The notes below the pieces were generated by a model. That model made no database searches, was not told where the DNA came from, and saw only the letters and a program-made list of their open reading frames with translations. Position numbers and translations under genes: made by a program. This document shows positions 34,226-54,695 of a DNA stretch of 64,000 nucleotides, in pieces. This DNA is from Oligoflexia bacterium (GTDB taxonomy: Bacteria; Bdellovibrionota; UBA1018; CAIPTA01), in the NCBI GenBank assembly GCA_023954355.1, contig JAMLID010000004.1, positions 1 to 64,000 on the forward strand. Direction: 5' to 3'. Numbering within the stretch: position 1 is the stretch's first letter; each line of letters opens with the position of its first letter.

Positions 34226-34576
34226 ATGCAAAGGAAAGAGGATTTTTTGTTTATGTTATTTTTTGCTCCAGCCTTAGCGAGTATCCTTACTTTGTCCTTG
34301 TTTTTTTTATGGAAGAAGAAAAATAATAAAAACGAGATTGAGAAAGAGAAAAAAGAAACTTTTCGATTTTTAAATTCATTTGCGTGGATAATTTTTCTAA
34401 TTGCAGGAATTTATCTTAACCTATTTAATTTTTTAGTTTTTAAAAAATCTATTTTCGCTTTATCTGGATTCGAGCAGAAGTTTATTTTTTTTGCCACAGC
34501 GCTTTTTCCATTTATTCTGATTTGTATTCTCGTTTGGGGAGTAAAAAAATCTTTCACTAAGTGGATAGGGCATTAA
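34226..34576 (+). CDS. Possible NuoA-like three-helix membrane protein
   Basis: 116 residues with three hydrophobic segments (about 8-29, 50-72, 85-106) and a charged loop after the first, the layout of NuoA. RFLNSFAWIIFLIAGIYLNLF sits where NuoA has the conserved RFSVRFYLVAILFLLFDVEV stretch, and the end (KKSFTKW) recalls the RKGxLEW end of NuoA, but the conserved acidic residues are absent. A better ribosome-binding site precedes ATG 34253. The NuoA call rests mostly on topology and on being first in a nuo-ordered cluster. Confidence 0.5.
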   Translation: MQRKEDFLFMLFFAPALASILTLSLFFLWKKKNNKNEIEKEKKETFRFLNSFAWIIFLIAGIYLNLFNFLVFKKSIFALSGFEQKFIFFATALFPFILICILVWGVKKSFTKWIGH

Positions 34577-34579
34577 GTT

Positions 34580-35011
34580 ATGGCGAATGAGTCCAATTTT
34601 CATTCATTAAGTAAAATAAATAGAACTTCGCTATGGGTCTACCACGTACCAATTTTATGTTGCTCAAATGAGGTAGAGTCTGTTTTTGGTCCTAGATTTG
34701 ATTTGGATCGTTTTGGTATGTCTTTGACGAAAGATCATAGAAGAGCAGACATACTTCTTTTAACCGGGCCGATTAATGCTAAATTAGTGCCTTCTCTTAA
34801 AAAAATTTATAGCGAAATGAGTACTCCTAAGTGGGTTGTTGGAGTTGGGGTTTGTTCATTTGGGGGTGGAATGTTTGCTCCTAAGAATGAAAAATATGCC
34901 GATGAAATACCAATCAATGTATATATACCTGGGTGTCCTCCTCGCCCAGAATCAATTATTAACGCCCTACTCTCAATAGCAAATGAAGCAGGTAAACATG
35001 AATCTGCTTAA
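34580..35011 (+). CDS. Divergent NuoB-like Fe-S subunit
   Basis: 143 residues. The four NuoB cysteines that bind the terminal 4Fe-4S cluster N2 are all in place: tandem Cys27-Cys28, Cys92 (GVGVCSFGGG) and Cys119 (YIPGCPPRPE). FDLDRFGM, RADILLLTGP and PKWVVGVG also match the family, in a form somewhat closer to group 4 hydrogenase/Mbh-type small subunits. The residue pattern is quite different from the canonical NuoB at 44876. It probably forms the electron-transfer end of a second complex I-like assembly. Confidence 0.85.
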   Translation: MANESNFHSLSKINRTSLWVYHVPILCCSNEVESVFGPRFDLDRFGMSLTKDHRRADILLLTGPINAKLVPSLKKIYSEMSTPKWVVGVGVCSFGGGMFAPKNEKYADEIPINVYIPGCPPRPESIINALLSIANEAGKHESA

Positions 35012-35255
35012 ATTAGAATTTGAGAAGTTAAATTGTAAGCTAAATAGCGTATTGCGATCTTCCAATCAAATATCAAATTTATTTGAGTGTGATGCGAGGA
35101 CGGAACAAAAAGAAAAAATATTTGATTTTTTTGAGAGAAATAAAGCAGATGGCAAAATTAAAGATATTTTCTTTTTTAAATCTAGAAAAAATAATTTTTG
35201 TATAGTGTTAGGGCACGACAATACCATTTACAGAGTGGAGTTCTTAAATGAATGA
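34998..35255 (+). CDS. Small unknown protein in the NuoC position
   Basis: 85 residues from ATG 34998 (aggt upstream; it overlaps the B-like gene by 14 nt), or 90 residues from ATG 34983. It lies between the B-like and D-like genes where NuoC normally is, and it is less than half the length of a NuoC domain. I do not see the NuoC signature EREVFDLYGI; the KDIFFFKSRKNNFCIVLG stretch could be a remnant of the NuoC sheet, but that is speculative. Its last bases overlap the D-like start. Call by position only. Confidence 0.5.
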   Translation: MNLLKLEFEKLNCKLNSVLRSSNQISNLFECDARTEQKEKIFDFFERNKADGKIKDIFFFKSRKNNFCIVLGHDNTIYRVEFLNE

Positions 35256-36282
35256 TCATTTTGAAGAAATCAACATCCATTCTATTGAATCCGCTGCTGT
35301 ATACGGCATTGACTTATTATCTTTTGATTTGGTTGTAGATGATGGGTTAATTAAAAAGGCCTTAATAAGCAATAGTTTTTTAAATAGAAAAATTCAAGAA
35401 CTGAGCTTTCCTCAGAGTCTTAAGCTGTATACGTTAGCTTTTGAAAAAATAGATTATGATTACTCTCAGTACTATTCCCATGCTTTTGTTAGCACGCTAG
35501 AAGATTTATTAAGTCAATCTGTTAGTGAAAGAACGAAGCAAATTCGCAGATTGATTTTAGAACAATCTACAATTTATGGGTTACTCACTTTTTTCTTTAA
35601 ATTGTCTTCTATATTGGAAATAAGCGCATTGGCTAACTACTCTATTCGAGAACGAGACAGGGTTTCAGATTTATTTGAAATGTATTGTGGTTCTCGTCTA
35701 GGCTTTGGTGCTATCAATCTCTTTAATTATACTAATGATGTTTCTGATGGTTATATATTTAAGATAGAAAAAACACTGGCGTTTCTAAAAGAATATACAG
35801 AGGAGTTGAGTGTACTTTTATTGCAACACCCGCTTCTATTAAAAAGAGCAAGAGGGCTTGCGGTTGTTCAAGAAAGTCACTTTGATTCTGAAAGCTATTT
35901 AAAAAGTGATTTTAGCTTACTCTCAACTGATGTGTATCAAAGAATTTTAAATAAATATGATCTTTTTCTAAAATCCTTAAATACTATTTCTGAATTACTG
36001 ACAAAATTAAGTAAAAGCCCACAAGCGGATGATGATTCACTAAGGTTTCAAAAAAACGACCCTCTTCCATGGTCTTTTCAATCAATAAAAACTCCTAGAG
36101 GAGAGGCGGGGTTTTATTTAGAATTTGATCAGAACACAAAAACAATACGGTCTGTTGAGGTATCTACGTATTCGAGTAGAATTATTTCTTTGGTTGAGAA
36201 AATACTTATTGGTAATAACTTAGATGATCTTAGTTTAATTGTTGGGTCGTTTGATCTGAGCAGTTCGGAGATTGATTTATGA
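35248..36282 (+). CDS. Divergent NuoD-like 49-kDa-type subunit
   Basis: 344 residues, shorter than the NuoD part of NuoCD (about 385). Recognisable blocks are ERTKQIRRLILEQ (94-106), IRERDRVSDLFEMYCGSRL (133-151), TPRGEAGFYL (282-291) and the end GSFDLSSSEIDL (333-344), which parallels GSVN..AGELDR. The quinone-site HPATH and LHRxxEK histidines are gone (NRKIQE at 46-51). There is only one cysteine, so it cannot be a [NiFe] hydrogenase large subunit. It probably retains the fold but not quinone chemistry. Confidence 0.8.
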   Translation: MNDHFEEINIHSIESAAVYGIDLLSFDLVVDDGLIKKALISNSFLNRKIQELSFPQSLKLYTLAFEKIDYDYSQYYSHAFVSTLEDLLSQSVSERTKQIRRLILEQSTIYGLLTFFFKLSSILEISALANYSIRERDRVSDLFEMYCGSRLGFGAINLFNYTNDVSDGYIFKIEKTLAFLKEYTEELSVLLLQHPLLLKRARGLAVVQESHFDSESYLKSDFSLLSTDVYQRILNKYDLFLKSLNTISELLTKLSKSPQADDDSLRFQKNDPLPWSFQSIKTPRGEAGFYLEFDQNTKTIRSVEVSTYSSRIISLVEKILIGNNLDDLSLIVGSFDLSSSEIDL

Positions 36283-37202
36283 TAGTATTTATTAATCTAT
36301 TCATTAGCTTGATTTTGTGTTTCCTATATATAGTTTTTGCTTCATTTGTATTATTAGTAGCGCAAAGATTTTTAGACTCAAGGGTAGAACATAAAGAAGG
36401 GCCATTTTTTTATGGAATCCAGGGGTCTTTTCAAATTTTTTACGATTTTATACGTGAGTATAAAAAAAGATCAAGTAGAGGTATTTTTAGTTTTGAGTTT
36501 TTCGTAATTTCTTTTTGGGTAATAACCCCACTATTATTCTTTTTTGTCATTGTTAATAGAGCCATGCCTACCATTATTGAAGATTTAGGTGTTTTTATTT
36601 TAGTATTATTAATTGCTCTATCCATTATTTTTGATGTCTTATTTTCTTTGCTAACAACTGAGGCAAATGAGTCTTATTTGTGGAAAAGAAGAGCGGTTGT
36701 GCGCATTTTTGGATTAGGTGTTTTTTCAATTAGTTTTTTACCGATTATAATGGCAACGGGAAGTTTAGATATAGCAGCCTTTTCACTCATCCAAACCAAG
36801 GCACCATTTTTAAATTTACTATTAAGTCCAGGTAATTTTGTCGGAGGAATCATTGCGTTCGGTAGTGTTATCATTCTTAATCCAGATATTTTACTAGGGA
36901 AAAATAAACAGCTTAGTATTAACAATAGACGACAAGCTTTGATTGAGTTTATAGATGCGAGCTGGATAGTTGTATTACTTTCTTATTGGATTGTTGTTTA
37001 TTTCGGTGGTGTAAATAGCTATGTATCGGCAGGTTTATTTAGTTTTAAACTTTCATTTATTTTATTTATATTTCTCTTATTTAAGAAAGGAATAAGTAAA
37101 ATTAAAGCACAAGATGCTGCTGAGGTTTCGTTGAGATATTTATTTTCCTTTGGCTTTATTGGAGTTTTATTAGAAGTTTTTTGGATAGCATTCGTAAGGT
37201 GA
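36279..37202 (+). CDS. Divergent NuoH-like membrane subunit
   Basis: 307 residues, eight or so hydrophobic segments, length and position of NuoH. The early loop SRVEHKEGPFFYGIQGSFQIFYDFIREY parallels the RxGPNRVGPFGLLQxxADxxKxxxKE stretch of NuoH. The conserved quinone-loop block ETNRxPFDLPExESE is replaced by sequence without those glutamates (NPDILLGKNKQLSINN, then EFIDASW). It overlaps the D-like gene by 4 nt. Likely a structural homologue of the membrane heel subunit with an altered E-channel. Confidence 0.75.
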   Translation: MIVFINLFISLILCFLYIVFASFVLLVAQRFLDSRVEHKEGPFFYGIQGSFQIFYDFIREYKKRSSRGIFSFEFFVISFWVITPLLFFFVIVNRAMPTIIEDLGVFILVLLIALSIIFDVLFSLLTTEANESYLWKRRAVVRIFGLGVFSISFLPIIMATGSLDIAAFSLIQTKAPFLNLLLSPGNFVGGIIAFGSVIILNPDILLGKNKQLSINNRRQALIEFIDASWIVVLLSYWIVVYFGGVNSYVSAGLFSFKLSFILFIFLLFKKGISKIKAQDAAEVSLRYLFSFGFIGVLLEVFWIAFVR

Positions 37203-37205
37203 AAA

Positions 37206-37664
37206 ATGGGTTTGAGTCAGGCAATTAAAATTATTAAATTACTTTTAAAGTATTTAATAAGAACAACAAGTCGATATAAAGGTATTGTTGAGAGATATCC
37301 CGATGTAGTTTCTGCAAAAACGAGCGATGATCTATTTCCAACATATAAGGGGTATTTGAGAAACGATTTATCTAAATGTACTGCTTGTGGTGACTGCTTA
37401 ACTTTGTGTCCAGTTGAAGCCCTTTCATTTGTAGAGAATGAGTCAAGTACAGAAGTTAAGATAGAGGAATTCAATATAGACCTTGGGCGGTGCTATTCTT
37501 GTGGGCTCTGTGTAGAGAAATGCCCAGAAAAAAGCCTTTTTTTCTCTAAAGAATTTGAGTTGCACGCTACAAATTTAAATGGACTTGTTATGAAATTACA
37601 TGGAGAAGCATTTAAAAAAGAAAAAGATATTTCTAGAATTCGTACATACGATATTCGGAGGTAA
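37206..37664 (+). CDS. NuoI-like two-cluster ferredoxin subunit
   Basis: 152 residues. Two complete 4Fe-4S motifs are seen: CTACGDCLTLCP (Cys58, 61, 64, 68) and CYSCGLCVEKCP (Cys96, 99, 102, 106), spaced as in NuoI. An N-terminal amphipathic region precedes them. It ends with a basic tail. Together with the B-like subunit it would provide a chain of three 4Fe-4S clusters, so electron transfer capacity seems to be retained in this otherwise eroded cluster. Confidence 0.9.
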   Translation: MGLSQAIKIIKLLLKYLIRTTSRYKGIVERYPDVVSAKTSDDLFPTYKGYLRNDLSKCTACGDCLTLCPVEALSFVENESSTEVKIEEFNIDLGRCYSCGLCVEKCPEKSLFFSKEFELHATNLNGLVMKLHGEAFKKEKDISRIRTYDIRR

Positions 37665-37666
37665 GA

Positions 37667-38155
37667 TTGATAGTTTTTTTAGGAATTTTAATGGGAATAA
37701 TTATGGGAATGGTGTGGTTGTCGTTTTCCACGCATTCTTTATATAGATTAATTGGCGATATAATAATTTCTGTCGGTATTGGGCTTTCTTTATGTGTCGC
37801 CGTAGGAAGTTTGATTTGTTTAATCCCATTGGTTGTATACTTAATTGTAGATATAGGCACTCATCTTTATTTTCGTTCTGTTGATATCAAAAATGTTAGT
37901 GAAGAAATTTTTAAGCCACACAACATAATTTTAGGATTATTCTTCTTCTCAATTTTAACATCGGTAGGTTTTTTTATAGGCAAAAATATTTTATCAGAAT
38001 CTTTAGCGTTTGATGGTGTTGTAAAGTCTATAGCGGATCTAGGTGATTTATATCGTAAGAGCCTAATAGAAAACATGCTGTTTACTAGCGTTACAACATT
38101 AACTATTTTATCTGTGTCTATGGCGGGGTTTTTACTAAACAAAAAGGACGACTAG
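37667..38155 (+). CDS. Divergent NuoJ-like membrane subunit
   Basis: 162 residues, about five hydrophobic segments, as in NuoJ. TTG start at 37667, two bases after the I-like stop, with a strong cggaggt ribosome-binding site. The C-terminal IADLGDLYRKSLIENM followed by the last helix parallels the ELGGNITVLSQHMFSLY region of the canonical NuoJ at 51873. The conserved helix motif VYAGAIMVLFIFVIM appears only as VYLIVDI. Assigned from order, length and end similarity. Confidence 0.65.
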   Translation: MIVFLGILMGIIMGMVWLSFSTHSLYRLIGDIIISVGIGLSLCVAVGSLICLIPLVVYLIVDIGTHLYFRSVDIKNVSEEIFKPHNIILGLFFFSILTSVGFFIGKNILSESLAFDGVVKSIADLGDLYRKSLIENMLFTSVTTLTILSVSMAGFLLNKKDD

Positions 38156-38478
38156 TGTTGGTTGAAATAGAAAATGCATCAAGATTTTTATTGGCTGGTC
38201 TGGCAAGTCTAACTCTTTTAGGGCTTTTTTTGTATATAAGTGCAAATAATTTATTTACTACCGTAAAAAGTCTAGTTCTTTCTCTTAAAGCAGTAATTGC
38301 GTTAATTCTTTTATTAATGCTGAAAGAAGCGAATGTAAGCGCTAGTATGTTAATCTTTTTTGTTTTGTTAAGTGGTCTATTTGGATTAGTTGTGATCTTG
38401 GCAAGTTTTATTATGAACAGAATTAATCATGAAAAAGGGGATTTGGATTTAGATAAAAATTCAGAATTAAAAAATTAA
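38155..38478 (+). CDS. Divergent NuoK-like membrane subunit
   Basis: 107 residues with three hydrophobic segments, typical of NuoK. GTG start at 38155 overlaps the previous stop by one base. By alignment with the canonical NuoK (52416), the key Glu40 of the CIELML motif becomes Lys45 (SLKAVIAL), and Glu76 of AAAEGAVG has no acidic counterpart (SGLFGLVV). A polar, charged tail follows the third helix. Proton transfer of the usual kind is therefore unlikely. Confidence 0.7.
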   Translation: MLVEIENASRFLLAGLASLTLLGLFLYISANNLFTTVKSLVLSLKAVIALILLLMLKEANVSASMLIFFVLLSGLFGLVVILASFIMNRINHEKGDLDLDKNSELKN

Positions 38479-38481
38479 ATC

Positions 38482-40230
38482 ATGGATCAGCTACTATTAT
38501 ATTTTACAATTTTTTCTTTAAGTGTTCCGCTGCTTTTTTTTATTTTTTCCCCTATTTTAAGTGGCATTAATAATGAGAGAAAAAATTTATTTTATTCTAT
38601 TTCTTATATCCCCGCTCTATTGATTTGCTTAATTTCTGCAATTTCTTTAAGCGAAAGTATTAGTTTAGCACCGATATTCACTTTATCGTTGGAGAAAACA
38701 GGTTATTTTGATTTTTCTTTATTTCTGTATTGGAAAAGTTTATTTTTTATTTCCATACTGGCATTTTTCTTTTTAATAAGAGCTTATTTTATTTTTATTG
38801 AAGAAAATAAAGCAAATTCAGATTTGTATTTTAGTGGTGCGTCTTTCTTTTGTTTTAGTTTAGCACTGTTGAATGAAAATTATTTTACAGAGGTATTTTT
38901 TACAGAAATAGGAGCGTTTCTACTATATTTAGACCAAACAAGAAAATCTTCTGAAATAGAAGCGCTTGAAAAGGTTTATTATTTTCGTAGATATATTTTC
39001 ATTTTTCTTACTTGTGTTTCTATTTTGATATTAAGTTTTATTCCTGCTTTCGATATTCAATCTTTAATATTGCTGGCTTTTCTTTTATATTTTTTATCTT
39101 TTGTTTTCTCTAAGACGAAAATAAAAACTTTTTGTCAAGCTTCAGAGTTATTAATCATTTCTGTTGTACCGCTTTATATTTTAGATTCATTTATGAGTAA
39201 TGGGATAAGAGCGGGATTAGAGCTATGGGCCCCGATAGCGATTTTATTCGGCATAATATCTTTCTATTTGATTTTATCAGTAATTAGTCATGCGAATTTT
39301 GAAATTATAATTTCTAGATTGATACCATCTGTTCTTGGTTTATATATGTATCTGAACTTCTCTTCAGGTGGGAATAGTAGAGACTTATGGGCGTTACATC
39401 TCATAGCGATATTAATAAGCATTGGATTATTGCTTCTTTTAAGAGCAATGCCAATTCGTTCTGAAAATAAAGTATTTGAAATCTTAAAATATACCATGTG
39501 GTTCATTTCACTGGGGCTTATTGTTCAATTTGTTCCTGGGCCAATCATGTCACTAGATAGTTCTATTTTTAATATTTTCGGAGTGAATCCTATTTTGGTA
39601 GTATTGATATCTACTTTAATTACATCTGAATTATTTATCATTCAGAGATCCAAGAATAGCACTCTGGGAAGAGTGAAAAAGATTTCTGATTTTCGACCAT
39701 TTTTGTTCTTTCTACTTTTTTACACAATTTTTATCTCTATTATTTTTCTTAAATATAAAAATTTAATTACTTTAGATATGCTTAAAGTAGACCTACAATT
39801 ATATTTTACTTCGTGGAGGATTGCTGAAGTTTCAGTTGCAATCGTAGTTGGCGTACTGATTTATTATTGGTTCAGTAAAGCTGCCTTCCTTGCAAAATTC
39901 ATTCAAAAGATAGAAAAATCAAATAAAGAATCAAGTCCAATGATTGATGCTCGCGCCTGGAGTTTATTGCTTATGGCGGTGTCTCTACCTAAGAAGACTC
40001 AAATTTCTATTGAAAATTTTCAGGTTAAGCTTCGAAATAGAATACAAAAATTAATAGAATTTATAGATGCCGAGCTTTTATTAGAATTTTTCTATAAAAT
40101 ATTCAATTCATATTTGGTTTCAACGTCAGGACTAATTAGGCTTATTCACTCCGGGAATGGAAAAGTGTACTATTTAGTTTTTTTTATTATAGTATCGTTA
40201 TTTATGTTTTTCCTTTGGAGAGAAAGTTAA
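38482..40230 (+). CDS. Divergent NuoL-like antiporter-type subunit
   Basis: 582 residues, about fourteen hydrophobic segments. The clearest NuoL trait is the C-terminal end: amphipathic helix, then RLIHSGNGKVYYLVFFII and a final transmembrane helix, parallel to the canonical RTLQTGKLEHYLLAF end. A Glu is kept in VFFTEIGAFLLYL, the place of the helix-5 glutamate. The broken-helix motif GKSAQxPLxxWLPDAM is missing. It fits as the distal subunit with the lateral helix that braces the others. Confidence 0.7.
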   Translation: MDQLLLYFTIFSLSVPLLFFIFSPILSGINNERKNLFYSISYIPALLICLISAISLSESISLAPIFTLSLEKTGYFDFSLFLYWKSLFFISILAFFFLIRAYFIFIEENKANSDLYFSGASFFCFSLALLNENYFTEVFFTEIGAFLLYLDQTRKSSEIEALEKVYYFRRYIFIFLTCVSILILSFIPAFDIQSLILLAFLLYFLSFVFSKTKIKTFCQASELLIISVVPLYILDSFMSNGIRAGLELWAPIAILFGIISFYLILSVISHANFEIIISRLIPSVLGLYMYLNFSSGGNSRDLWALHLIAILISIGLLLLLRAMPIRSENKVFEILKYTMWFISLGLIVQFVPGPIMSLDSSIFNIFGVNPILVVLISTLITSELFIIQRSKNSTLGRVKKISDFRPFLFFLLFYTIFISIIFLKYKNLITLDMLKVDLQLYFTSWRIAEVSVAIVVGVLIYYWFSKAAFLAKFIQKIEKSNKESSPMIDARAWSLLLMAVSLPKKTQISIENFQVKLRNRIQKLIEFIDAELLLEFFYKIFNSYLVSTSGLIRLIHSGNGKVYYLVFFIIVSLFMFFLWRES

Positions 40231-41571
40231 ATGGAACTTTTATTGCTTAGTGGGTATCTAGCTTCTCCTATTCTTGTTTTTTTAATAAGTTACTTTTTAT
40301 TACATAAATGGCCAGTATCTAATGGCATTTGGCTTATTCTAAGTGTTATTAGAGTTCTGTTTTTAATTCTACTCTTTTTCGAAAGCAGCACTGGACTTGG
40401 TCATATTATTGGTGAAGTTGGAGATCCAAGAATATGGAGGTTTTCACTTGATTTGGCATTAAATAAAAGTCATTTGGGATTTTTGTTTATAGTTGATTTT
40501 TGCTTTTTAATATCAAACCACTCTATACACAAAAGTATAAGGCATAGAAATTCTATTGGTTTTTTTGGAGCCTTATTGCAAGCACTTATTCCTATTTATA
40601 TCATTTGTCATAATATTCTTGCCGCAGCAGGTGTGTTATTTTTATCTGCGATTTGTATGTATTATTTTCTAATTAATGCAAATTCTTCAAAAGAAAATCT
40701 AGAAGATTCTAATCTTATTCAGTCTTTTTTTATAACAATTTCTAGAGTAGCTATTTTAACTGGTGTATGGGGTTTTTTAGAATTTCAAGATTCAGATTTT
40801 ATTTTGAAAAATATTCAAGGCACTAATTTTGGTTTTTACTTGTGGATGGTAATGGTCGTTTTTACTATTCCCCTGCCACCTTGGTCTAGGCGTTTGAATA
40901 TCTTAATTTCGAATTTACCGCCAAACTTAGTAATTGTTTCTATGATTTTATTGAGTGCGATGGCCTATAAAAATATTTTTTCTTTTTCACAAATTTATAC
41001 TTCGTGGTCTGGTCTAGAGAAAATGATTTTTTACGGCTTAGGCCTGATTTCATCGATATTTGGCGTTTTAGAGTTATTCTCAGACAAGACCCCACATAAG
41101 CTACCAGTTGGAATGCCGTTATTTTTCTTATCTCTTATGCTTATTTCACTTGGTTTATCTCAGGAATCAATGGCGAAGTCGGCCTTTTTTCTTAGTATGC
41201 TGGTGCCTGCGTCTGTGAGTTTTGTTGTATGCTTTCCTAGTAGTGGAACAAATTCGGTTTTACATAAGATTTTTTATTCTATTCTATTTATTCTGATTTT
41301 AGGCCTTCCTGGTACGCCAATATACTTAGTGTTTAGTTCATTGGGATCAAAATCTATTGAAATTGGTTTGTGGACTACGGCTATTTTCGGTTTGATTTGG
41401 TTTTTTTATTTTAGTGTTAACGTACATTTTTTTAGGACAGCGATTTTATCGGAAAAAGACAATATAAAAAATGGATCATCAAATGAGCAAGGAAAAGAGT
41501 TTTTGGTACTCGGTATTTTACTTGGACTTGTTTTAATAATGATAGGGTATTTAACGGGAAGATTATTATGA
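40231..41571 (+). CDS. Divergent NuoM-like antiporter-type subunit
   Basis: 446 residues, about twelve or more hydrophobic segments. FTIPLPPWSRRLNILISNLPPNLVIVS parallels the NuoM block [26 protein letters not shown]: the helix-7 lysine is Thr212, the second lysine (VLLKLGGYG) is Ser in ILLSAMAYK, and the helix-5 glutamate of FWEAM is absent (LSAIC at 138-142). All three charged residues thought to drive pumping in NuoM are replaced. Start ATG follows a ggagag site. Confidence 0.75.
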   Translation: MELLLLSGYLASPILVFLISYFLLHKWPVSNGIWLILSVIRVLFLILLFFESSTGLGHIIGEVGDPRIWRFSLDLALNKSHLGFLFIVDFCFLISNHSIHKSIRHRNSIGFFGALLQALIPIYIICHNILAAAGVLFLSAICMYYFLINANSSKENLEDSNLIQSFFITISRVAILTGVWGFLEFQDSDFILKNIQGTNFGFYLWMVMVVFTIPLPPWSRRLNILISNLPPNLVIVSMILLSAMAYKNIFSFSQIYTSWSGLEKMIFYGLGLISSIFGVLELFSDKTPHKLPVGMPLFFLSLMLISLGLSQESMAKSAFFLSMLVPASVSFVVCFPSSGTNSVLHKIFYSILFILILGLPGTPIYLVFSSLGSKSIEIGLWTTAIFGLIWFFYFSVNVHFFRTAILSEKDNIKNGSSNEQGKEFLVLGILLGLVLIMIGYLTGRLL

Positions 41572-43013
41572 GCGATTCGTTCTATTTAGTTTTAATTTTA
41601 GGCCCTATTCTTCATGCAATATTTATAACATTAAATGCACTTTTTAAATTTGATAAACATAATGTGTGGAAGATTTTTACATGTTTACATGGGCTATCAA
41701 CACTAAGCGTTGCATTTGTAATGATCGCTAGCTTATTGAATAAGCAAGAACTTACACAAAGAGGTGCACAATTTTTATTAGAATCTCCGCTATTTCGTTC
41801 AGGGACAGTTTTATTAGAGATAAATAGATTCAGTTCGATATTAGCTTTTTTTATAAATTTAATTTTCTTTTTAAATCAGTTTTTAATTATTAGAAGACGA
41901 GAATTTAGTAAATCAGAAGTTTCTGCTTGGTCGGCTCTTTCTATCTCATTAGCCGGTGTACTGTTTGGTGGAAGCATTTCACTATACATATTTTTTATGT
42001 CTCTAATGTTGATTTCTTTAGTGACTATTTTCGGATCCGATGTTTTCGAAGAGAAAGAAAAGTATTTAAAGTATCTAGTGGGTAAGGGGCTTTTATCTAT
42101 TCTACTTTTAATTGTGGTAGATTTGGTTTCTAAAGGAGACTACTTAATCCATTTCCCAAAATTTCTAGGAGATAGTTTCGAATCAAAGGAAAAAATACAC
42201 TTATTTGGCATTTTGCTTTCATTTTGGCTTATTTCTGGTTTGCCTCCCTTTCATTTAGATTTAAGCCTTGGATTAAAGGCTAAAAATTATGAAAGAAATT
42301 TAGCAAATATTGCACCAGCAATTTTTTCTATTGTTTTAATTACCTTTCACTTACCTAAAGAAACAGTTCTTTTTGAAGAAATGAGAGTTTTCATTTTAGG
42401 GTTATTTATAGGGATTTTGTTTTTTTCTGTATTTGACTTAATGAGGAGAAATAAAATTAATGAATACGAATTTAGAGGTGTTTACGCGTGGATGCTTTCC
42501 TGGGTAATGTTAGGATTATTCTCTGGTAATTCAAAAGGCATTAGTGGAGGCTTAGTCTTGGCTCTAGTGGTTCCTATTATTTATAGTTTAAATATTGCAG
42601 TCGGCTTACTAACTTCAAATAATAGCCAACAAGTGGATAATATAGAGTCAGATTTTTCTTATATAAGTGATATTGCTTTCATACTCTCTAGGGCGGCTAC
42701 ACTTTTTGCTCCGGTTTCTATAGGATGTCTCTCACTTTTTATGATTATAACGGCAATTAAAAATGAAGGTTCTAGCTGGGCGCTTTACTTGGTGATTGCA
42801 GTGCTTTCTCTTTCTATACTTGCAACAGCAAAAAACTTTTTAATTAATAGCGAATATTCCAGCGAGTATTCTTTATCTCAAAGATTAAGATCAATTCAGG
42901 CAAATCATATGATTTTTTTACTGCCGCTAATAACTAGTTTGTTGCTTTCTATTATGTTGCCGTCTGTTTTTTTAAATGCAGGATTTGAGGGGTATTTATT
43001 ATTTTTTCGCTAA
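41568..43013 (+). CDS. Extra antiporter-type subunit, NuoM/NuoN-like
   Basis: 481 residues, about thirteen hydrophobic segments; it overlaps the previous gene by 4 nt. SGLPPFHLDLSLGLKA parallels the [18 protein letters not shown] block of NuoN without its lysine. YLKYLVGKGLLS parallels AIKYFITGSVAS. The helix-5 glutamate of SLELMSL is replaced in SLMLISL. A canonical complex I has three such subunits, so this is a fourth in the set. Whether it derives from M or N is unclear. Confidence 0.65.
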   Translation: MSDSFYLVLILGPILHAIFITLNALFKFDKHNVWKIFTCLHGLSTLSVAFVMIASLLNKQELTQRGAQFLLESPLFRSGTVLLEINRFSSILAFFINLIFFLNQFLIIRRREFSKSEVSAWSALSISLAGVLFGGSISLYIFFMSLMLISLVTIFGSDVFEEKEKYLKYLVGKGLLSILLLIVVDLVSKGDYLIHFPKFLGDSFESKEKIHLFGILLSFWLISGLPPFHLDLSLGLKAKNYERNLANIAPAIFSIVLITFHLPKETVLFEEMRVFILGLFIGILFFSVFDLMRRNKINEYEFRGVYAWMLSWVMLGLFSGNSKGISGGLVLALVVPIIYSLNIAVGLLTSNNSQQVDNIESDFSYISDIAFILSRAATLFAPVSIGCLSLFMIITAIKNEGSSWALYLVIAVLSLSILATAKNFLINSEYSSEYSLSQRLRSIQANHMIFLLPLITSLLLSIMLPSVFLNAGFEGYLLFFR

Positions 43014-43036
43014 AATTTTTTTTATTTAACTATTAT

Positions 43037-44467
43037 ATGTTTTTCCCCATGGGAGTCTTGTTATTTTCTGTTATTTTACAGTTGGTTTTTTTATCTTTCT
43101 TTAATCAGGCGACTAAAAAAAATTCTTTTAAAGAATATTTTGCGTTGTCAGCATTTGCACTTTGCGCCATTTATTTTCTGATAGGGTTTTCTTTAAAGGA
43201 CACGCTATACCTGACTGTTTACTATGATGCGGCTATTTTCAGGTTGCCTAGAGCAGTACTTTGTATAGCTGCTATAGTTATTTATTTGGGTTTAAGTAGG
43301 TCAAAGTTTTTCAACGAAAAACTTCGCTCAGAATTAATTTTAAATCTTTCTTTGATTATATTTTTATTAGATCAATTAATTGTATCTTCTAACATTATTC
43401 TCAGTTTTATATTATTAATGGGAATTTCTTTTTCTTTTATAGCTTTTATCGGAATGAGTAGAGGTTACTATGGTAGAATCGAGTCATTAACTAAATCATT
43501 TGTTTCTTTAGGGTTTGGATTCATTTTTTCGTCTATTTGTCTTGTATTTGTTTTATTCTCTGTTTCATCAGGGGACATATTTCAAATTAAGGAATTCTTA
43601 AATCAATCAGGAACCAATCATTTCTTCTACATTTTATTACTTTTAAGTACGTATTTGCCTTTAGTTCTATTAGGGCAATTATTTCCGTTTCATTTTTTTG
43701 CGATAGATCGAAGTCAAGGAGTGCCTTGGGGTCTTAAAATTTTATCTGTCATCACTCAGGGTGTTGTTTTAATTTCTTCTGTAAAGTTTTTGACTATTTT
43801 ATGGTCTGGAAACTTAAATCAGTCACAATATGAGTTAGGGTTTCGCTTTTTAAGTCTTTTAGGTGGAATCTGGCTTGGTCTTTTTCAGGTTACTCAACCT
43901 AAGATGAGTAGAGCTTTTGCGGCATATTCTTTGGTTTTATATAGTATTGTTGCTTCTGTTGCATTTAGTGGGGGGCCAAGGTCTTTAGCTGTTTCCGTTT
44001 ACGCATTTTCTGCATATACACTTTGTATTTTGGTTTTTGGCTATATTTGGGGCAGAGCTTCCGAGATTATAGATAGTGATGAGATTCATCTTATGAATGG
44101 CTTAGGAGCTCAATCAAAGCTTATTTCTTTATTGGTGTTTTGCGTGTTGAGTGGCGTTTCACTACTTCCTTTTTTTCCAGGATTAGTGATAAATCACGAA
44201 GTTTTAAAATCTTTTTTAAACACTGGGTCTGGAGTGGCTGTGAGCGCAGCTCTATCTCTCTTGCTTTGCTTAGGATTTATGAGTTGTCGTTATCTTTGGT
44301 CGTTTCTATTTCTACCTTCACATACACTGTCTGAGGTGAGTTGGACATTGGATAGGTTAGAGCGCGCTGTGTTAGTTGTTTGTGCTTTCGCGTTTTTAAT
44401 ATTTGGTATTTCGGGCTTTTCTCTAATGAATCTACTAGAACCATCTGCAAAGCTCTTTCTAAAATAA
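43037..44467 (+). CDS. Divergent NuoN-like antiporter-type subunit
   Basis: 476 residues, about thirteen hydrophobic segments. LFPFHFFAIDRSQGVPWGLKIL parallels the [22 protein letters not shown] block of NuoN, and QPKMSRAFAAYSLVLYSIVA parallels QSNFKRLMAYSAIAHTGYLL. The helix-5 glutamate (SLELMSL) is replaced (FILLMGISF) and the helix-7 lysine is absent. The ATG at 43037 lacks a Shine-Dalgarno. It is the last gene before canonical nuoA, which starts 42 bp downstream. Confidence 0.75.
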   Translation: MFFPMGVLLFSVILQLVFLSFFNQATKKNSFKEYFALSAFALCAIYFLIGFSLKDTLYLTVYYDAAIFRLPRAVLCIAAIVIYLGLSRSKFFNEKLRSELILNLSLIIFLLDQLIVSSNIILSFILLMGISFSFIAFIGMSRGYYGRIESLTKSFVSLGFGFIFSSICLVFVLFSVSSGDIFQIKEFLNQSGTNHFFYILLLLSTYLPLVLLGQLFPFHFFAIDRSQGVPWGLKILSVITQGVVLISSVKFLTILWSGNLNQSQYELGFRFLSLLGGIWLGLFQVTQPKMSRAFAAYSLVLYSIVASVAFSGGPRSLAVSVYAFSAYTLCILVFGYIWGRASEIIDSDEIHLMNGLGAQSKLISLLVFCVLSGVSLLPFFPGLVINHEVLKSFLNTGSGVAVSAALSLLLCLGFMSCRYLWSFLFLPSHTLSEVSWTLDRLERAVLVVCAFAFLIFGISGFSLMNLLEPSAKLFLK

Positions 44468-44509: not shown

Positions 44510-44872
44510 ATGTCCGGCTACTTTCCGGTTTTGCTTTTGTTTTTAGTAGGTTTAGCGATTTCTTCAGCTGTAATATTTGGTGTCGCACTACTTGGGCCTA
44601 AGCGACCAAATAAATTTAAAAACTCTGTTATTGAGTGTGGTGTTCCGCCAAGTGGTGATGCTAGAAAAAGATTTTCTGTGCGTTTCTATTTAGTCGCCAT
44701 ATCATTTTTACTCTTTGATGTTGAAGTTGCTTTACTGTTCCCATGGGCAATCGCGTATAGGAAATATCTTGAATTCAATTTATTTGCTCTAGGATTAATG
44801 TTGTTTTTTTTAACGATGATCACCGTAGCTTTTGTGTATGAGTGGCGCAAGGGCGGATTGGAATGGGAGTAA
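44510..44872 (+). CDS. nuoA: NuoA, NADH-quinone oxidoreductase subunit A
   Basis: 120 residues, three transmembrane helices. It shows the conserved ECGVPPSGDARKRFSVRFYLVAI, LFDVEVALLFPWA and C-terminal YEWRKGGLEWE of NuoA. The first gene of the canonical nuo operon, preceded by an aggggg site seven bases upstream. Only 42 bp separate it from the divergent NuoN-like gene, with no terminator seen, so the two gene sets may share a transcript. Confidence 0.96.
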   Translation: MSGYFPVLLLFLVGLAISSAVIFGVALLGPKRPNKFKNSVIECGVPPSGDARKRFSVRFYLVAISFLLFDVEVALLFPWAIAYRKYLEFNLFALGLMLFFLTMITVAFVYEWRKGGLEWE

Positions 44873-44875
44873 ATT

Positions 44876-45343
44876 ATGCCTAAAGATGGAGCACCAGAAG
44901 TCATCACTACAAAGTTAGATGATTTTGTAAATTGGGCGCGTGCGAACTCTCTATGGCCGTACCCTTTTGGAACAAGTTGTTGTGGTATAGAGATGATGGC
45001 AACTTTGTCTGCGGATTATGACTTGGCAAGATTTGGAGCAGAGGTAGTGAGGTTCTCTCCTCGCCAAAGTGATATGATGATTGTGGCGGGAACGATCACT
45101 GAAAAAATGGGCCCCGTACTGAAAACTATTTATGAGCAAATGCATGATCCTAAGTGGGTGATTGCTATGGGAGCATGCTCTTCTTCAGGGGGTATTTTTG
45201 ATACCTACAGTGTGGTTCAAGGTGTTGATGAAATTATTCCTGTAGATATCTATATACCCGGTTGTCCGCCATCTCCAGAAGGAGTGATACATGGCGTGAT
45301 GAGGCTCCAAGAGAAAATTAAAAAAAATAAGGCGATGATCTAA
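44876..45343 (+). CDS. nuoB: NuoB, NADH-quinone oxidoreductase subunit B
   Basis: 155 residues. Carries cluster N2, the last Fe-S cluster before quinone. Ligands: tandem Cys35-Cys36 ([10 protein letters not shown]), Cys101 (MGACSSSGG) and Cys130 ([10 protein letters not shown]). Also [20 protein letters not shown], typical of bacterial NuoB. It starts three bases after nuoA and is the functional counterpart of the divergent gene at 34580. Confidence 0.97.
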
Positions 45344-45346
45344 AAT

Positions 45347-47140
45347 ATGAATGTAGAATTTTCTGTAGATGGTTTAGAGAGACTAAAAGGAAGATACGCG
45401 AAAGAGATTCAAGAGCTGCAATCAACTGGTTCAGATGTGCCAATTGTTTATGTGGCTAAGGAAAATCTTATTAGTTTTTTATCTTCTATACGAAAAGAAG
45501 AAGGATTCGAGCTGAGTTTCTTAGCTGACTTGACGGCCTATGATGATAACCCCCCCTTGGGTGAGATAAGGGATTATGGATTGGGTTCCGTTCGAAAAGA
45601 AAGTGGTGACCACCGCTTTGTTGTTGTTTATCAATTATTGTCTCTTCAAACAAAGGACAGGCTTAGAGTTAAAGTTCGTTTAAATGATGGAGAAGATTGC
45701 CCATCAGTGGTTTCACTTTGGAAGTCTGCGAATTGGTTAGAAAGAGAAGTATTTGATTTATATGGGATACGATTCACGGGGCACCCTAATCTAAAGAGAA
45801 TTTTATTAGACGATCGCTGGGTGGGACACCCACTTAGAAAAGACTACCCCATTAAAAAATATCAAAGATTTGAAGATGCTGCTTCGTTAGAGAGTTTTGG
45901 CTTATCTTTAGATGAATCTGATCCAGCAAAAAAGCAAATAGATGATGATTTTGAAGAGGAGGGGGATATTTTTGAAGGTTCTCAGACACTCATTAATATT
46001 GGTCCTCAGCACCCTGCAACTCACGGGACGTTAAGGATAGCTTGTAAATTAAGTGGCGAAACTGTGATTGATAGTCATTGCGAGATTGGGTATTTGCATA
46101 GAGCAATGGAAAAATTGGGTGAGGTTAAAACTTATCATAAGTTTATTCCCTATACTGATCGATTAAACTATTGTTCGGCTCTACAAAATAACGTTGCATA
46201 TGTAACAAGTGTAGAGAAATTAATGGGAATCGAGCTCCCTCCTAGAAACACTTACATCCGTACTATGGTTTGTGAAATGGCTAGAATTATAGACCATATT
46301 ATTTGTGTAGGAATCAGCGCTTTTGATTTAGGTGCAATGACTTATTTTCTTTATGGCTTTCATCAAAGAGAAGAATGTTATTCATTAATTGAAAGTCTTT
46401 GTGGATCTCGATTGACTACAACATATACTCGCGTTGGCGGTCTGTCGGCAGACTTGCCAGACGGTTTTTTGCCTAGAATGAAAAAATGGTTAGATGGCTT
46501 AGAAGATACTTTAAAAGAAATGGATAAGCTTTTAACGAATAATCGAATTTGGGTAGATCGAACAAAGGGAATTTCGGCATTTACAGCAGATCAAGTGATG
46601 ACATATTCGATGACAGGTCCTTGTATGCGTGCATCTAATATTAACTTTGATTTAAGAAGAGATCGACCGTACCTCGCATACAAACAGTTAGAGTTTGATG
46701 TTCCTGTTGCCAAGGGCGGTGATGTCTATGACCGCTACTTAGTACGTGTTCAAGAGATGTATGAATCTATTCGTATCCTTCGTCAAATAATTGAGAAAAT
46801 GCCGAGTGGTCCAATTTGGGCTGATGATAAAAGAATTAGAATTCCAGATAAAGGTAGAGTTCATAACTCAATGGAATCATTGATTCACCATTTTAAATTC
46901 TTTATGGAAGGGTTCGATGTTCCTGAAGGTGAGGCTTATGTTCCAATGGAAGGGCCAAATGGAGAGGTTGGATTTTATATAGTTAGTAAGGGGGGGCCTA
47001 AAGCTTATCGTTTAAGGATAAGAGCGCCTTCTTTCTTTATGTTTCAGCCCGTGCCAGAAATGGTTAAGGGAGAGAATATAGCGGATGTAATTGCTGCTAT
47101 AGGATCTGTGAATATTATTGCTGGAGAGTTGGATCGATAG
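45347..47140 (+). CDS. nuoCD: NuoCD fusion, NADH-quinone oxidoreductase subunits C/D
   Basis: 597 residues. The NuoC part (1 to about 190) has the signature WLEREVFDLYGIRFTGHPN. The NuoD part (about 214 to the end) opens with NIGPQHPATHGTLR, then IGYLHRAMEKLGE and PYTDRLNY, which carry the quinone-pocket His and Tyr, and ends GELDR. The fusion resembles that of E. coli and some other lineages. The divergent cluster upstream has C-like and D-like parts as separate genes. Confidence 0.96.
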   Translation: MNVEFSVDGLERLKGRYAKEIQELQSTGSDVPIVYVAKENLISFLSSIRKEEGFELSFLADLTAYDDNPPLGEIRDYGLGSVRKESGDHRFVVVYQLLSLQTKDRLRVKVRLNDGEDCPSVVSLWKSANWLEREVFDLYGIRFTGHPNLKRILLDDRWVGHPLRKDYPIKKYQRFEDAASLESFGLSLDESDPAKKQIDDDFEEEGDIFEGSQTLINIGPQHPATHGTLRIACKLSGETVIDSHCEIGYLHRAMEKLGEVKTYHKFIPYTDRLNYCSALQNNVAYVTSVEKLMGIELPPRNTYIRTMVCEMARIIDHIICVGISAFDLGAMTYFLYGFHQREECYSLIESLCGSRLTTTYTRVGGLSADLPDGFLPRMKKWLDGLEDTLKEMDKLLTNNRIWVDRTKGISAFTADQVMTYSMTGPCMRASNINFDLRRDRPYLAYKQLEFDVPVAKGGDVYDRYLVRVQEMYESIRILRQIIEKMPSGPIWADDKRIRIPDKGRVHNSMESLIHHFKFFMEGFDVPEGEAYVPMEGPNGEVGFYIVSKGGPKAYRLRIRAPSFFMFQPVPEMVKGENIADVIAAIGSVNIIAGELDR

Positions 47141-47617
47141 ATGAAAAAGGTATTTGGAGAAAAATTTTACCAAGAAATGGACAGAATTTCGCAATTCTAT
47201 CCAAATAAAAGAGCAATGCTTTTGCCTGCATTACATGCGGCCCAAAAAGAGCGTGGATGGATTTCTGATGAAACCATGCAAGATGTTGCTGATTTTTTAG
47301 AAATTCCTAAAACTCAGGTGAAGGAAGTAGTTACCTTTTACCATATGTTTCATACTAAGCCTGTTGGTAAGGTGAATTTACAGTTTTGTAATAATATCGC
47401 TTGCTGGCTTCGTGGATCAGAAGAGTTAATTCATCACGCAGAAAAAAAATGTAATATTCGGTTAGGTGAAACTACAGGTGATGGAGTCTTTACTATATCT
47501 GAAGTGGAATGCTTGGGGTCTTGTGGCACGGCACCAGTTTGTCAGGTAAATGATGATTACCATGAAAATTTTTCTGTAGAAGCTTTAGATAAATTATTAG
47601 AGGGCAGACAATCATGA
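47141..47617 (+). CDS. nuoE: NuoE, NADH-quinone oxidoreductase subunit E
   Basis: 158 residues, thioredoxin-like fold with one 2Fe-2S cluster (N1a). The four ligand cysteines are in FCNNIACW and VECLGSCGTAP. It starts directly after the nuoCD stop and overlaps nuoF by 4 nt. Part of the NADH-oxidising module that the upstream divergent cluster lacks. Confidence 0.95.
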   Translation: MKKVFGEKFYQEMDRISQFYPNKRAMLLPALHAAQKERGWISDETMQDVADFLEIPKTQVKEVVTFYHMFHTKPVGKVNLQFCNNIACWLRGSEELIHHAEKKCNIRLGETTGDGVFTISEVECLGSCGTAPVCQVNDDYHENFSVEALDKLLEGRQS

Positions 47618-48888
47618 ATCATGAAATCGTCTTTTCTAAATATTACGGCGAATCTCAAACAGAAGGATTAGATTATTATAAAAAGCATGACTATGGATAT
47701 AATGCTCTACTAAAGGCAATTGAGATGGGCTTTGAGAAAGTTCATCAAGAAGTTAAAGATAGTGGCTTAAGAGGTCGTGGTGGGGCTGGTTTCCCTTGTG
47801 GTATGAAGTGGGGATTTATTCCTAAAAATACAGAAAAGCCTATTTATCTAGTAATTAATGCAGATGAGTCCGAGCCTGGAACATTTAAAGATCGTGCAAT
47901 TATGGCATACCAGCCACACTTGATGATTGAAGGGGCAATTATTTCTGCCATGACGATTAAGGCACATATGATTTACGTTTATATCCGTGGAGAATATGTA
48001 AAAGAGGCTAAGATTTTAGATGCGGCAATAGAGGAAGCTTATAAAGCTGGTTATTTAGGTAAAAATGTTGCGGGTACAGGATATCAATTAGATATGGTTG
48101 TCCATAGAGGTGCTGGGGCATATATTTGTGGTGAAGAAACAGCGCTATTGAATTCTTTAGAGGGTAAAAGAGGAGAGCCTAGAATTAAGCCTCCATTTTT
48201 TCCAGCAGCAATTGGTTTGTTTAGTTGTCCCACTGTTGTGAACAATGTTGAAACTCTGGCTTGTGTTCCAATGATTGTTTCCAAAGGCGCTGAGTGGTTT
48301 CGTTCTTTTGGTCCAGAAAAAAATCATGGAATGAAACTCTTTTGTATTTCTGGGCATGTAAATCGCCCAGGTCTTTATGAGCGACCCATGGGGTATCCAC
48401 TCATGAAATTAATAGAAGAAGATTGTGGCGGAATATGGAAGGGCAGAAAATTAAAAGCAGCTTTTCCTGGAGGGTCATCGGCACCTGTTTTGACGGCAGA
48501 AGAATGTAATGTAAATTTAGATTTTGATTCACTGGCAAAAGCAGGCTCTATGCTTGGTTCTGCTGGTATTATGGTTATTGATGATGCGACCTGCATATTA
48601 AAAGTAGCGATTAGAACAGCTCATTTTTATCAAGTAGAGAGTTGTGGTCAGTGTACGCCGTGCAGAGAAGGATCGATGTGGCTTAAAGAGTTACATATTC
48701 GATTAGAAGCGGGTGAAGGTAAAGTTAGTGATTTAGATCTCATAGAAGATATTTGTAATAATATGGACGGAACAACGATTTGTGCTTTCGGGGAGGCAAC
48801 GGCTTGGCCTCTGAGAAGTATGGTTAAGAAATTTCGATCAGAATATGAACAACATGTTGTTGAAAAGAGATGTCCGTTTGAGGGTTAG
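47614..48888 (+). CDS. nuoF: NuoF, NADH-binding subunit
   Basis: 424 residues. Binds NADH and FMN and the N3 4Fe-4S cluster. Motifs: GLRGRGGAGFPCGMKW (NADH/FMN), NADESEPGTFKDR, GAYICGEETALLNSLEG, and the cluster ligands ESCGQCTPCREG plus TTICAFGEA. All expected residues are present. It overlaps nuoE by 4 nt. Confidence 0.97.
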   Translation: MNHEIVFSKYYGESQTEGLDYYKKHDYGYNALLKAIEMGFEKVHQEVKDSGLRGRGGAGFPCGMKWGFIPKNTEKPIYLVINADESEPGTFKDRAIMAYQPHLMIEGAIISAMTIKAHMIYVYIRGEYVKEAKILDAAIEEAYKAGYLGKNVAGTGYQLDMVVHRGAGAYICGEETALLNSLEGKRGEPRIKPPFFPAAIGLFSCPTVVNNVETLACVPMIVSKGAEWFRSFGPEKNHGMKLFCISGHVNRPGLYERPMGYPLMKLIEEDCGGIWKGRKLKAAFPGGSSAPVLTAEECNVNLDFDSLAKAGSMLGSAGIMVIDDATCILKVAIRTAHFYQVESCGQCTPCREGSMWLKELHIRLEAGEGKVSDLDLIEDICNNMDGTTICAFGEATAWPLRSMVKKFRSEYEQHVVEKRCPFEG

Positions 48889-48905
48889 CGTAGAAAGGTA
48901 ATGCT

Positions 48906-50318
48906 ATGGCAAAAGTTGTAATTGATGGAGTTGATGTAGAGTTTGAAGCCGGCGAAAAAATTATCGACGTTGCTTCAAAAGTAAACAACCACATTCCAAG
49001 ATATTGCTATCATGAGGGGCTCTCTATAGTAGCTCAATGTAGAATGTGTTTAGTGGAGGTTGAGGGGCAACGAAAATTAGTTACTGCTTGTTCTACACCT
49101 TGCACTGATGGGATGAAGGTTTCTACTAAATCTGAGAAAGTTAAAAAAGCTGTATCGGGAGTACAAGAGTTTTTATTAGTAAACCATCCCTTGGATTGCC
49201 CAATATGTGATCAAGCTGGTGAATGTAGCTTGCAAGAGTATAGCTATAAGCATGGCCAAGAAGATGCCCGAACGGATTTTTTTAGAAGAACATATATAGA
49301 TGTGGATATGGGGCCATCTATTAAGAAAAACATGAATCGCTGTATTCATTGCACGAGATGTATTCGGTATTGTGATGAAGTTGGCCAAATTCATGAAATG
49401 ATTGCCCAACAAAGAGGAAATGATACTGAGATTGTTACGATAGATGGAAATCCTTTACAGACAGCGTATGCTGGCGGGTTAGCTGATGTTTGTCCTGTTG
49501 GTTCATTAACAACTAAAGATTTTAGGTTTAAGAAAAGAGTTTGGTATTTAAGGAGTAAAGACACAATTTGTGATGGTTGCTCACAAGGGTGTAATATTTC
49601 TGCTTCTTTTGAAAGCAACCTTATTTACCGACTTGAACCAAGAAAAAATATGGACATTAATAAGTGGTGGATGTGCGATGAGGGTAGATACGGGTTTCAC
49701 CACGTACATAGCCCATCAAGAGTCTTGGGGCCATTAATAAAGACAAGCGATAGTTTTGAGTCACGTCTTTGGGGAGATCTTATCCCCTCAGTCAGCGCTT
49801 TAGTTCAACAAGCGAAAAATATTTCAGTGGTAGTTGCTGCTGATGCAACATTAGAAGAAGTTGCTATATTGAAGACTCACTTTTCTTCAGCAAATTTCTA
49901 TTCTTATAGTCCAAGTGTAGAGAAAACATCTGAAGATAAGGCTGTTGATCACTTGATTAGAAGAAAAGACAAGTCTCCTAACTTAAAAGGATTAGAAGAA
50001 AGCGGCCTTCGTCCATTCTCTGAGCTTAAGAGTGGAAGTGATTTATTGATATTTTTCAATGCGGGAAAAGTGCGTGTACCTTATGGATTAGCTAAATTAG
50101 CTAAAAATGCTATAGCAATAGGTGTCGCTATGAAAGAAGACTTAAATGGCTGGAATTATGTTCTTCCTTCTTTATCTACTTATGAAAAATCAGGCACATT
50201 TGTGAATCATACTGGTATGAAACAAAAATTTGCTGCCGCAATTGCACCTGTAGGATTATCTAGGCCTTTAAATAAAATATTAGAAGCACTTACAAAGTCA
50301 GATAGAAAGGTAGGATAG
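48906..50318 (+). CDS. nuoG: NuoG, Fe-S subunit G, short form
   Basis: 470 residues, well below the usual 650-900. The N-terminal half is complete: 2Fe-2S ligands (CYHEG, QCRMC, ACSTPC), the His-Cys N5 motif (HPLDCPICDQAGEC), and N4 ligands (NRCIHCTRCIRYC, then DVCPVGS). A CxxCxxxC-27-C motif (CDGCSQGC, then MCDEGR) matches the off-path N7 cluster. The molybdopterin-like domain after it is largely reduced. The reading frame is clean to the stop, so this looks like a natural short form. Confidence 0.92.
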   Translation: MAKVVIDGVDVEFEAGEKIIDVASKVNNHIPRYCYHEGLSIVAQCRMCLVEVEGQRKLVTACSTPCTDGMKVSTKSEKVKKAVSGVQEFLLVNHPLDCPICDQAGECSLQEYSYKHGQEDARTDFFRRTYIDVDMGPSIKKNMNRCIHCTRCIRYCDEVGQIHEMIAQQRGNDTEIVTIDGNPLQTAYAGGLADVCPVGSLTTKDFRFKKRVWYLRSKDTICDGCSQGCNISASFESNLIYRLEPRKNMDINKWWMCDEGRYGFHHVHSPSRVLGPLIKTSDSFESRLWGDLIPSVSALVQQAKNISVVVAADATLEEVAILKTHFSSANFYSYSPSVEKTSEDKAVDHLIRRKDKSPNLKGLEESGLRPFSELKSGSDLLIFFNAGKVRVPYGLAKLAKNAIAIGVAMKEDLNGWNYVLPSLSTYEKSGTFVNHTGMKQKFAAAIAPVGLSRPLNKILEALTKSDRKVG

Positions 50319-50319
50319 C

Positions 50320-51423: not shown

Positions 51424-51432
51424 GGAGAAGAA

Positions 51433-51876
51433 ATGCTAATTAAAAGAGAGCATAGTTTTTGGCAAAAATTTTATCTGGTTGAGTTTTTTCTTGGTCTTGG
51501 GATCACTTTAAAGAACTGGTTTTTTGGTAAAAACATCACCTATCAATATCCAGAGCAAAGAAGACAGTATTCTCCAAGATATCGAGGGCAGCACTATATT
51601 AAATCAGTAAACGGGGTAGAAAATTGTACTGCTTGTATGCTTTGTCCTACCGTTTGTCCTGCTGACTGTATTCATATAGAAGCGGGAGAAAAAGAGAATA
51701 AAGAAAAATATCCAGTTAAATTTGATATTGATATTCTGCGCTGTTGTTTCTGTGGGTATTGTGAAGAGGCCTGCCCAAAAGATGCAATTAAATTATCTAA
51801 TATATATGAAATGGCAGATTACGAGCGTCGAGTATACGACAAAGATTTTTTGATGATTCAAAGGGCAAAAAAATGA
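51433..51876 (+). CDS. nuoI: NuoI, NADH-quinone oxidoreductase subunit I
   Basis: 147 residues with two 4Fe-4S motifs (N6a and N6b): CTACMLCPTVCP and CCFCGYCEEACP. The N-terminal amphipathic segment (FWQKFYLVEFFLGL) docks on the membrane. It overlaps nuoJ by 4 nt and follows nuoH behind a gggagaag site. Confidence 0.97.
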   Translation: MLIKREHSFWQKFYLVEFFLGLGITLKNWFFGKNITYQYPEQRRQYSPRYRGQHYIKSVNGVENCTACMLCPTVCPADCIHIEAGEKENKEKYPVKFDIDILRCCFCGYCEEACPKDAIKLSNIYEMADYERRVYDKDFLMIQRAKK

Positions 51877-52412: not shown

Positions 52413-52415
52413 TTT

Positions 52416-52730: not shown

Positions 52731-52739
52731 AGGAAAAAA

Positions 52740-54677: not shown

Positions 54678-54695
54678 AACTTGAAAGAGGAATAG

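Follow-up and report, generated by a model that had tools for sequence, protein, structure and literature searches.

A second, EFG-less complex I-like gene set in the class UBA1018 retains iron–sulfur ligands and lacks proton-path residues

INTRODUCTION

What does a complex I do once the residues of its proton path are gone and its genes are not? The question is raised by a 64,000-nucleotide stretch of contig JAMLID010000004.1 from an Oligoflexia bacterium (hereafter the window), in which a 12-gene complex I-like set without NuoEFG (34226–44467, plus strand, 12 open frames) is followed by a full canonical nuo operon. In complex I, the NuoI clusters pass electrons to cluster N2, which reduces quinone; the Glu residues of NuoK, the E-channel and the Lys and Glu residues of the antiporter-like subunits are needed for coupling. 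An initial annotation of the window had claimed that such residues are replaced in the K-, L-, M- and N-like subunits of the upstream set. Here we follow that claim through the host lineage of both gene sets, the class UBA1018 (Bdellovibrionota), using sequences of metagenome-assembled genomes (MAGs). UBA1018 is treated as the sister of Bacteriovoracia, and the name Bdellonasia has been proposed for it (PMC13200544).

RESULTS

Gene layout and subunit identity

The frames of the divergent set (Table 1) overlap or nearly touch, with spacings of −29 to +23 bp, and the canonical operon begins 42 bp 3′ of the set. All twelve are open over 10 kb, in line with the intact reading frames initially reported. 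Pfam matches lie above the cut-off for B, D, H and I and below it for K, and none of the four large membrane proteins had an antiporter or complex I match. Solved complex I chains are the top matches for divergent B and D, and the position of dA is occupied in relatives by an A-like gene with weak NuoA scores. By descent of its homologous B/D/H/I core the set belongs to the complex I (Nuo/NDH-1) family, and its content is that of an 11-subunit, EFG-less complex I-like enzyme (A–D and H–N present, with N2, N6a and N6b), A, C and J being assigned by position. Scans for promoters and terminators gave signal at chance level, and a plasmid search with the canonical CD query returned no match. The canonical nuoM is split in two (54696–55238 and 55205–56290) by a single frameshift near 55205, which is either a sequencing or assembly error or a real mutation; a search of the genome found no nuoM besides this split copy.

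Table 1. Features of the divergent set and the adjoining operon in the window
Feature	Position	Strand	Basis of assignment and key residues
NuoA-like (dA)	34226–34576	+	By position (first gene); no significant Pfam NuoA match
NuoB-like (dB)	34580–35011	+	Pfam Oxidored_q6 3e-22; four Cys of cluster N2 kept
NuoC-like (dC), shrunken	34983–35255	+	By position (gene order)
NuoD-like (dD)	35248–36282	+	Pfam Complex1_49kDa 4.7e-17; quinone-site His lost, Tyr kept, no [NiFe] Cys pairs
NuoH-like (dH)	36279–37202	+	Pfam NADHdh 1.2e-08; E-channel Glu lost
NuoI-like (dI)	37206–37664	+	Pfam Fer4 family matches; both 4Fe-4S motifs intact
NuoJ-like (dJ)	37667–38155	+	By position (gene order)
NuoK-like (dK)	38155–38478	+	Pfam Oxidored_q2 1.1e-4, below cut-off; both Glu lost
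NuoL-like (dL)	38482–40230	+	Order, size, C-terminal motif common to class L proteins; possible helix-5 Glu142
Extra antiporter-like subunit (dM)	40231–41571	+	Order relative to G002; medium-confidence model; Foldseek; Thr212/Ser242 at Lys sites
NuoM orthologue (dN1)	41568–43013	+	By order; G002 counterpart matches M profile at 95%
NuoN orthologue (dN2)	43037–44467	+	86% profile match to G002 counterpart, itself 98.6% to N profile
Canonical 14-subunit nuo operon	44510–57776	+	Proton-path residues intact

The frames at 40231, 41568 and 43037 had been labelled M-, N- and N-like. Gene order and profiles in G002, a genome of the same order as the window with four antiporter-like proteins in the same sequence, correct these labels to extra, M and N: the third G002 protein matches the M profile and the fourth the N profile, so that the frame at 41568 is the M orthologue and that at 40231 an additional subunit. 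The succession of J, K and antiporter-like genes holds across the class, and M of the relatives matches NuoM chains at 1e-76. In the window, profile comparison of dL, dM and dN1 with known subunits found no detectable homology, and for these three of the four antiporter-like proteins sequence alone gives no reliable alignment; their identity is based on gene order, motifs and helix content, and for dM also on the structure model. That model, produced by AlphaFold2 from a 22-row alignment (pLDDT 69.5, pTM 0.72), has helices 7 and 12 broken and an antiporter-like fold partly imposed by the alignment rows, and Foldseek matched it, among the top entries listed, to antiporter-like subunits from complex I, Mrp and Mbs. 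The model of dL was too poor for use.

Proton-path residues in the window and across the class

Both Glu residues of dK are lost, as first described; the proposed replacement of Glu40 by Lys45 depends on the alignment, with MAFFT placing Leu40/Val41 at the site of E. coli Glu36. Lys45 lies about one turn past this first Glu site and carries the opposite charge, and the second Glu site is G77. The reported Thr212 at the helix-7 Lys of dM, the Ser at its second Lys (here Ser242) and the missing helix-5 Glu (here F137) were all recovered. No charged residue lies within five positions of the dM helix-5 and helix-7 sites; the closest candidate substitute, Lys247, follows the helix-8 site by five residues. 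Likewise, dN1 and dN2, said to be without the helix-5 Glu and helix-7 Lys, have S145/I222 and M128/L212 at these sites with no charge within five residues, and dN2 has Q241 and N386 at further sites. At helix 5 and helix 7 of the M- and N-type subunits there is therefore no equivalent Lys or Glu one turn away. For dL, where the alignment is weak, the suggested helix-5 Glu is plausible as Glu142 in 'NYFTEVFFTEIG'.

Counts across the class, made by alignment to E. coli and to the canonical copies of the same genomes, are given in Table 2. Divergent H, K, L, M and N retain 0–5% of the proton-path residues, N-K395 and H-E220 being the exceptions, and at several sites most replacements are neutral or isosteric (E→Q in K, K→Q in L/N, K→R in M). 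Because the canonical copies of the same class keep the residues, their loss in the divergent copies is not a matter of chance, and the alignments and this comparison confirm the residue loss first seen in the window. One divergent set (L046, genome G019) keeps M K265, M E407 and N E133 and is, by these residues, an intermediate. The Glu pair of K, the E-channel Glu of NuoH and the helix-5/7/8/12 Lys and Glu of L, M and N, taken as the mark of a pumping enzyme, are not found in the divergent set, with the possible exception of Glu142 of dL. As far as sequence can tell, the class-wide loss lends good support to the earlier view that this membrane arm would not pump in the known way.

Table 2. 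Proton-path residues in canonical and divergent copies (E. coli numbering)
Site	Canonical	Divergent
K E36	E 18/18	Q16/H1
K E72	E 18/18	Q13/L2/Y/P
L E144, K229, K342, K399	15/15 each	None save one K at 229
M E144	15/15	0/22
M K234	15/15	R 22/22
M K265	15/15	P18/A2/K/T
M E407	15/15	H10 and others (one E)
N E133	15/15	Q12/L6 and others (one E)
N K217	15/15	Q14 and others
N K247	13/15	R19
N K395	15/15	K in 18/22 relatives, not in window
H E157, E216, E218	22/22	0–1/23
H E220	22/22	D15/E4 of 23

Electron wire and quinone site

The Fe–S ligands of N2, N6a and N6b are retained in the divergent set: the N2 Cys of NuoB are kept in 30–31 of 31 and the eight ligands of NuoI in 29–30 of 30. NuoD has lost the second His of HPxxHG in all 32 divergent sequences (Pro in 26) and the quinone Tyr in 29 of them (Pro in 24/32); the three that keep the Tyr include the window. 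The combination of His and Tyr that marks a quinone-reducing NuoD is thus not found in the divergent set. Read from these residues and those of the membrane arm, the electron wire stays in the divergent sets and the coupling machinery goes.

Distribution, origin and selection

A search with divergent D was followed by inspection of stretches of up to 20 kb around the matches. The divergent set is followed by the canonical nuoA on one strand in every same-class genome with a long enough contig and in the same-order genome G002; the L108 contig ends inside divergent M. Named matches are MAGs of Bdellovibrionota. In G001, the only genome of the same family, divergent B, D and H were not found, and its canonical operon starts at the edge of contig C109, a pattern that a loss and an assembly gap would explain alike. 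Members of family f4 (L045, L049, L053) have a divergent L-like protein of about 280–290 residues and an M-like protein of 330–396 residues, and the C gene is absent between their divergent B and D. Elsewhere, L048 and L050 (G074, G059) carry a B-C-D-E-F-G-I cluster without membrane genes nearby, whose D branches with the canonical D sequences of UBA1018.

In a NuoD tree built by a quick method and containing long branches, the 32 divergent sequences are monophyletic (SH-aLRT 99) and sister to the second type of D found in other Bdellovibrionota (89), and the window D has an end branch of 4.55 changes per site. L046 and the window/G002 pair branch early in both the divergent and the canonical clades. 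A recent local duplication of the canonical operon is ruled out by this tree, and horizontal gain within the class is unsupported, as the divergent branching broadly follows that of the canonical copy. The three sister lineages inspected carry arms of this second type with their pump residues, two of them in the same tandem; the tandem therefore predates the loss, which is particular to the class UBA1018. Judged from tree and alignments together, it is a class-wide, vertically inherited and derived state.

Selection was estimated on close pairs in families f3 and f4, outside the window's own order. For the f3 pair L056/L057, dN/dS of the divergent genes is 0.026 (D), 0.017 (H), 0.10 (I), 0.025 (J), 0 (K, no amino acid change), 0.085 (L), 0.041 (M) and 0.036 (N), and that of the canonical genes 0.017 (A), 0 (B) and 0.098 (C). 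The f4 pair L096/L097, in which L and M are shortened, gives 0.02–0.05 for the divergent versus 0.006–0.055 for the canonical genes, values that are approximate given the high dS. Substitution rates in these relatives (dN/dS 0.00–0.10) indicate that the pump-less arm is maintained there by strong purifying selection.

DISCUSSION

A proposed non-pumping paralogue beside a working complex I

The explanation we favour, and to which we give about an even chance of being right, is that the product of the divergent set is a second complex I without E, F and G ('type 2'), which the cell still makes and which conducts electrons via N6a–N6b–N2 but pumps no protons. Its subunits would assemble into a complex. 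Since the set has no genes for an NADH module, electrons may enter this complex at the exposed NuoI clusters from ferredoxin or another soluble donor. From there they would run along N6a–N6b–N2 and exit near N2 to quinone or another acceptor, in a pocket probably remodelled by the His→Pro and Tyr→Pro changes found in most sets. The neutralised membrane arm would be retained as an anchor and packing surface, and the enzyme would work alongside the live complex I without coupling to the proton-motive force. In broader terms, a complex I may have been silenced beside a working one, with its Fe–S wire and arm scaffold kept and its proton path and canonical quinone chemistry lost, and may now serve either as an electron branch without coupling or as an integral partner of the live enzyme; on this wider formulation, too, our judgement is evenly divided. 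The kept Fe–S ligands, the lost proton path, the intact sister complexes, the low dN/dS and the conserved tandem all point towards an uncoupled enzyme. Against it, large membrane subunits kept only as an anchor would be costly, and N-K395 and the Arg at M-K234 and N-K247 of the relatives make some proton movement through N possible. With the quinone His lost in all sets and the Tyr in most, even the electron exit is uncertain.

The quinone-site losses (His absent in 32/32, Tyr in 29/32) would suit a structural pseudo-complex that has lost its redox function as well and serves to stabilise, regulate or form dimers with the canonical complex I. Such a partner would be expected to be strictly linked to the canonical operon throughout the class and to keep a membrane arm under selection without pump residues, and both are seen. 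However, the Fe–S Cys are essentially invariant amid fast divergence and a pure scaffold has no need for them, while the linkage predates the loss, pump-intact sister sets standing in the same tandem. We consider this explanation rather unlikely. Alternatively, the arm could move protons or another ion through different buried charges, for which there are candidates both in the relatives (N-K395 in 18/22, M-R234 in 22/22, Arg at N-K247) and near some sites of the window (dM Lys247, dL Glu142, and H387/E388/K391 of dN2). These candidates differ between lineages, however, the window's M/N-type helix-5 and helix-7 sites have no charge within five residues, and the K Glu and the NuoH E-channel are lost in all, which severs the arm from the quinone site; a relocated path is therefore improbable to us. 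Highly improbable is a decaying relic, the degenerating leftovers of a redundant complex I. The very fast divergence seen in the end branch of the window D, the shrunken C and the shortened L and M of f4 would all be explained by decay, but twelve intact frames over 10 kb, retention across the class, conserved Fe–S Cys and low dN/dS in the relatives would not, and for the relatives simple decay is rejected by dN/dS.

The class offers a natural experiment in which selection has kept the genes of a complex whose K Glu, E-channel and antiporter Lys/Glu are neutralised. Comparison of pump-intact sisters, the intermediate (G019/L046) and pump-dead forms can separate residues needed for pumping only from those needed for assembly or electron transfer. 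For estimates of energy yield, not every nuo cluster in a genome should be counted as a proton pump.

Comparison with known systems

Two other families were considered and set aside. A group 4 membrane-bound [NiFe] hydrogenase is rejected because dD has a single Cys, not two CxxC pairs, and an Mrp antiporter because B, D, H and I are present and M of the relatives is nearest to NuoM chains, not Mrp. Searches of the open-access literature turned up no description of a pump-dead paralogue of complex I. The divergent set resembles the known enzyme that has no NADH module and whose donor is not encoded alongside, but that enzyme is treated as an energy-coupling engine feeding menaquinone, whereas the divergent set is without coupling and quinone residues.

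In the MBNT15 bacterium SHF-111, adjacent nuoA-N and nuoABCDHIJKLMN clusters have long diverged (31–60% similarity), and the authors propose a proton-transporting complex (PMC9386147). The full and EFG-less clusters stand side by side as in the window, although their order is given as reversed (PMC9386147). Four antiporter-like subunits, as in the window and G002, are also found in the 2M complex I of Nitrospira, where a second NuoM, taken to provide additional pumping, makes up the fourth (PMC9040806). The duplicated NuoM with pump residues that defines 2M complex I is not found in the window set; among the sets compared, the fourth antiporter-like subunit occurs only in the window and G002 and is without pump residues. 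In EFG-less sets with two NuoM from Acidobacteria (L080–L090), Leu occupies the helix-7 Lys site of the second M in all copies inspected, and the other pump residues are kept.

The closest relatives of the divergent set in the D tree are the type-2 complex I sets of f10, f14 and f15 Bdellovibrionota (L155–L157). Their B-C-D-I genes lie at a separate locus, whereas B, C, D and I of the window set share its cluster. In f10 and f14, the type-2 A-H-J-K-L-M-N arm lies directly 5′ of the type-1 arm, like the tandem of the window, and none of the proton-path residues of H, K, L, M and N that have been lost in the UBA1018 sets is missing from the type-2 arms of all three.
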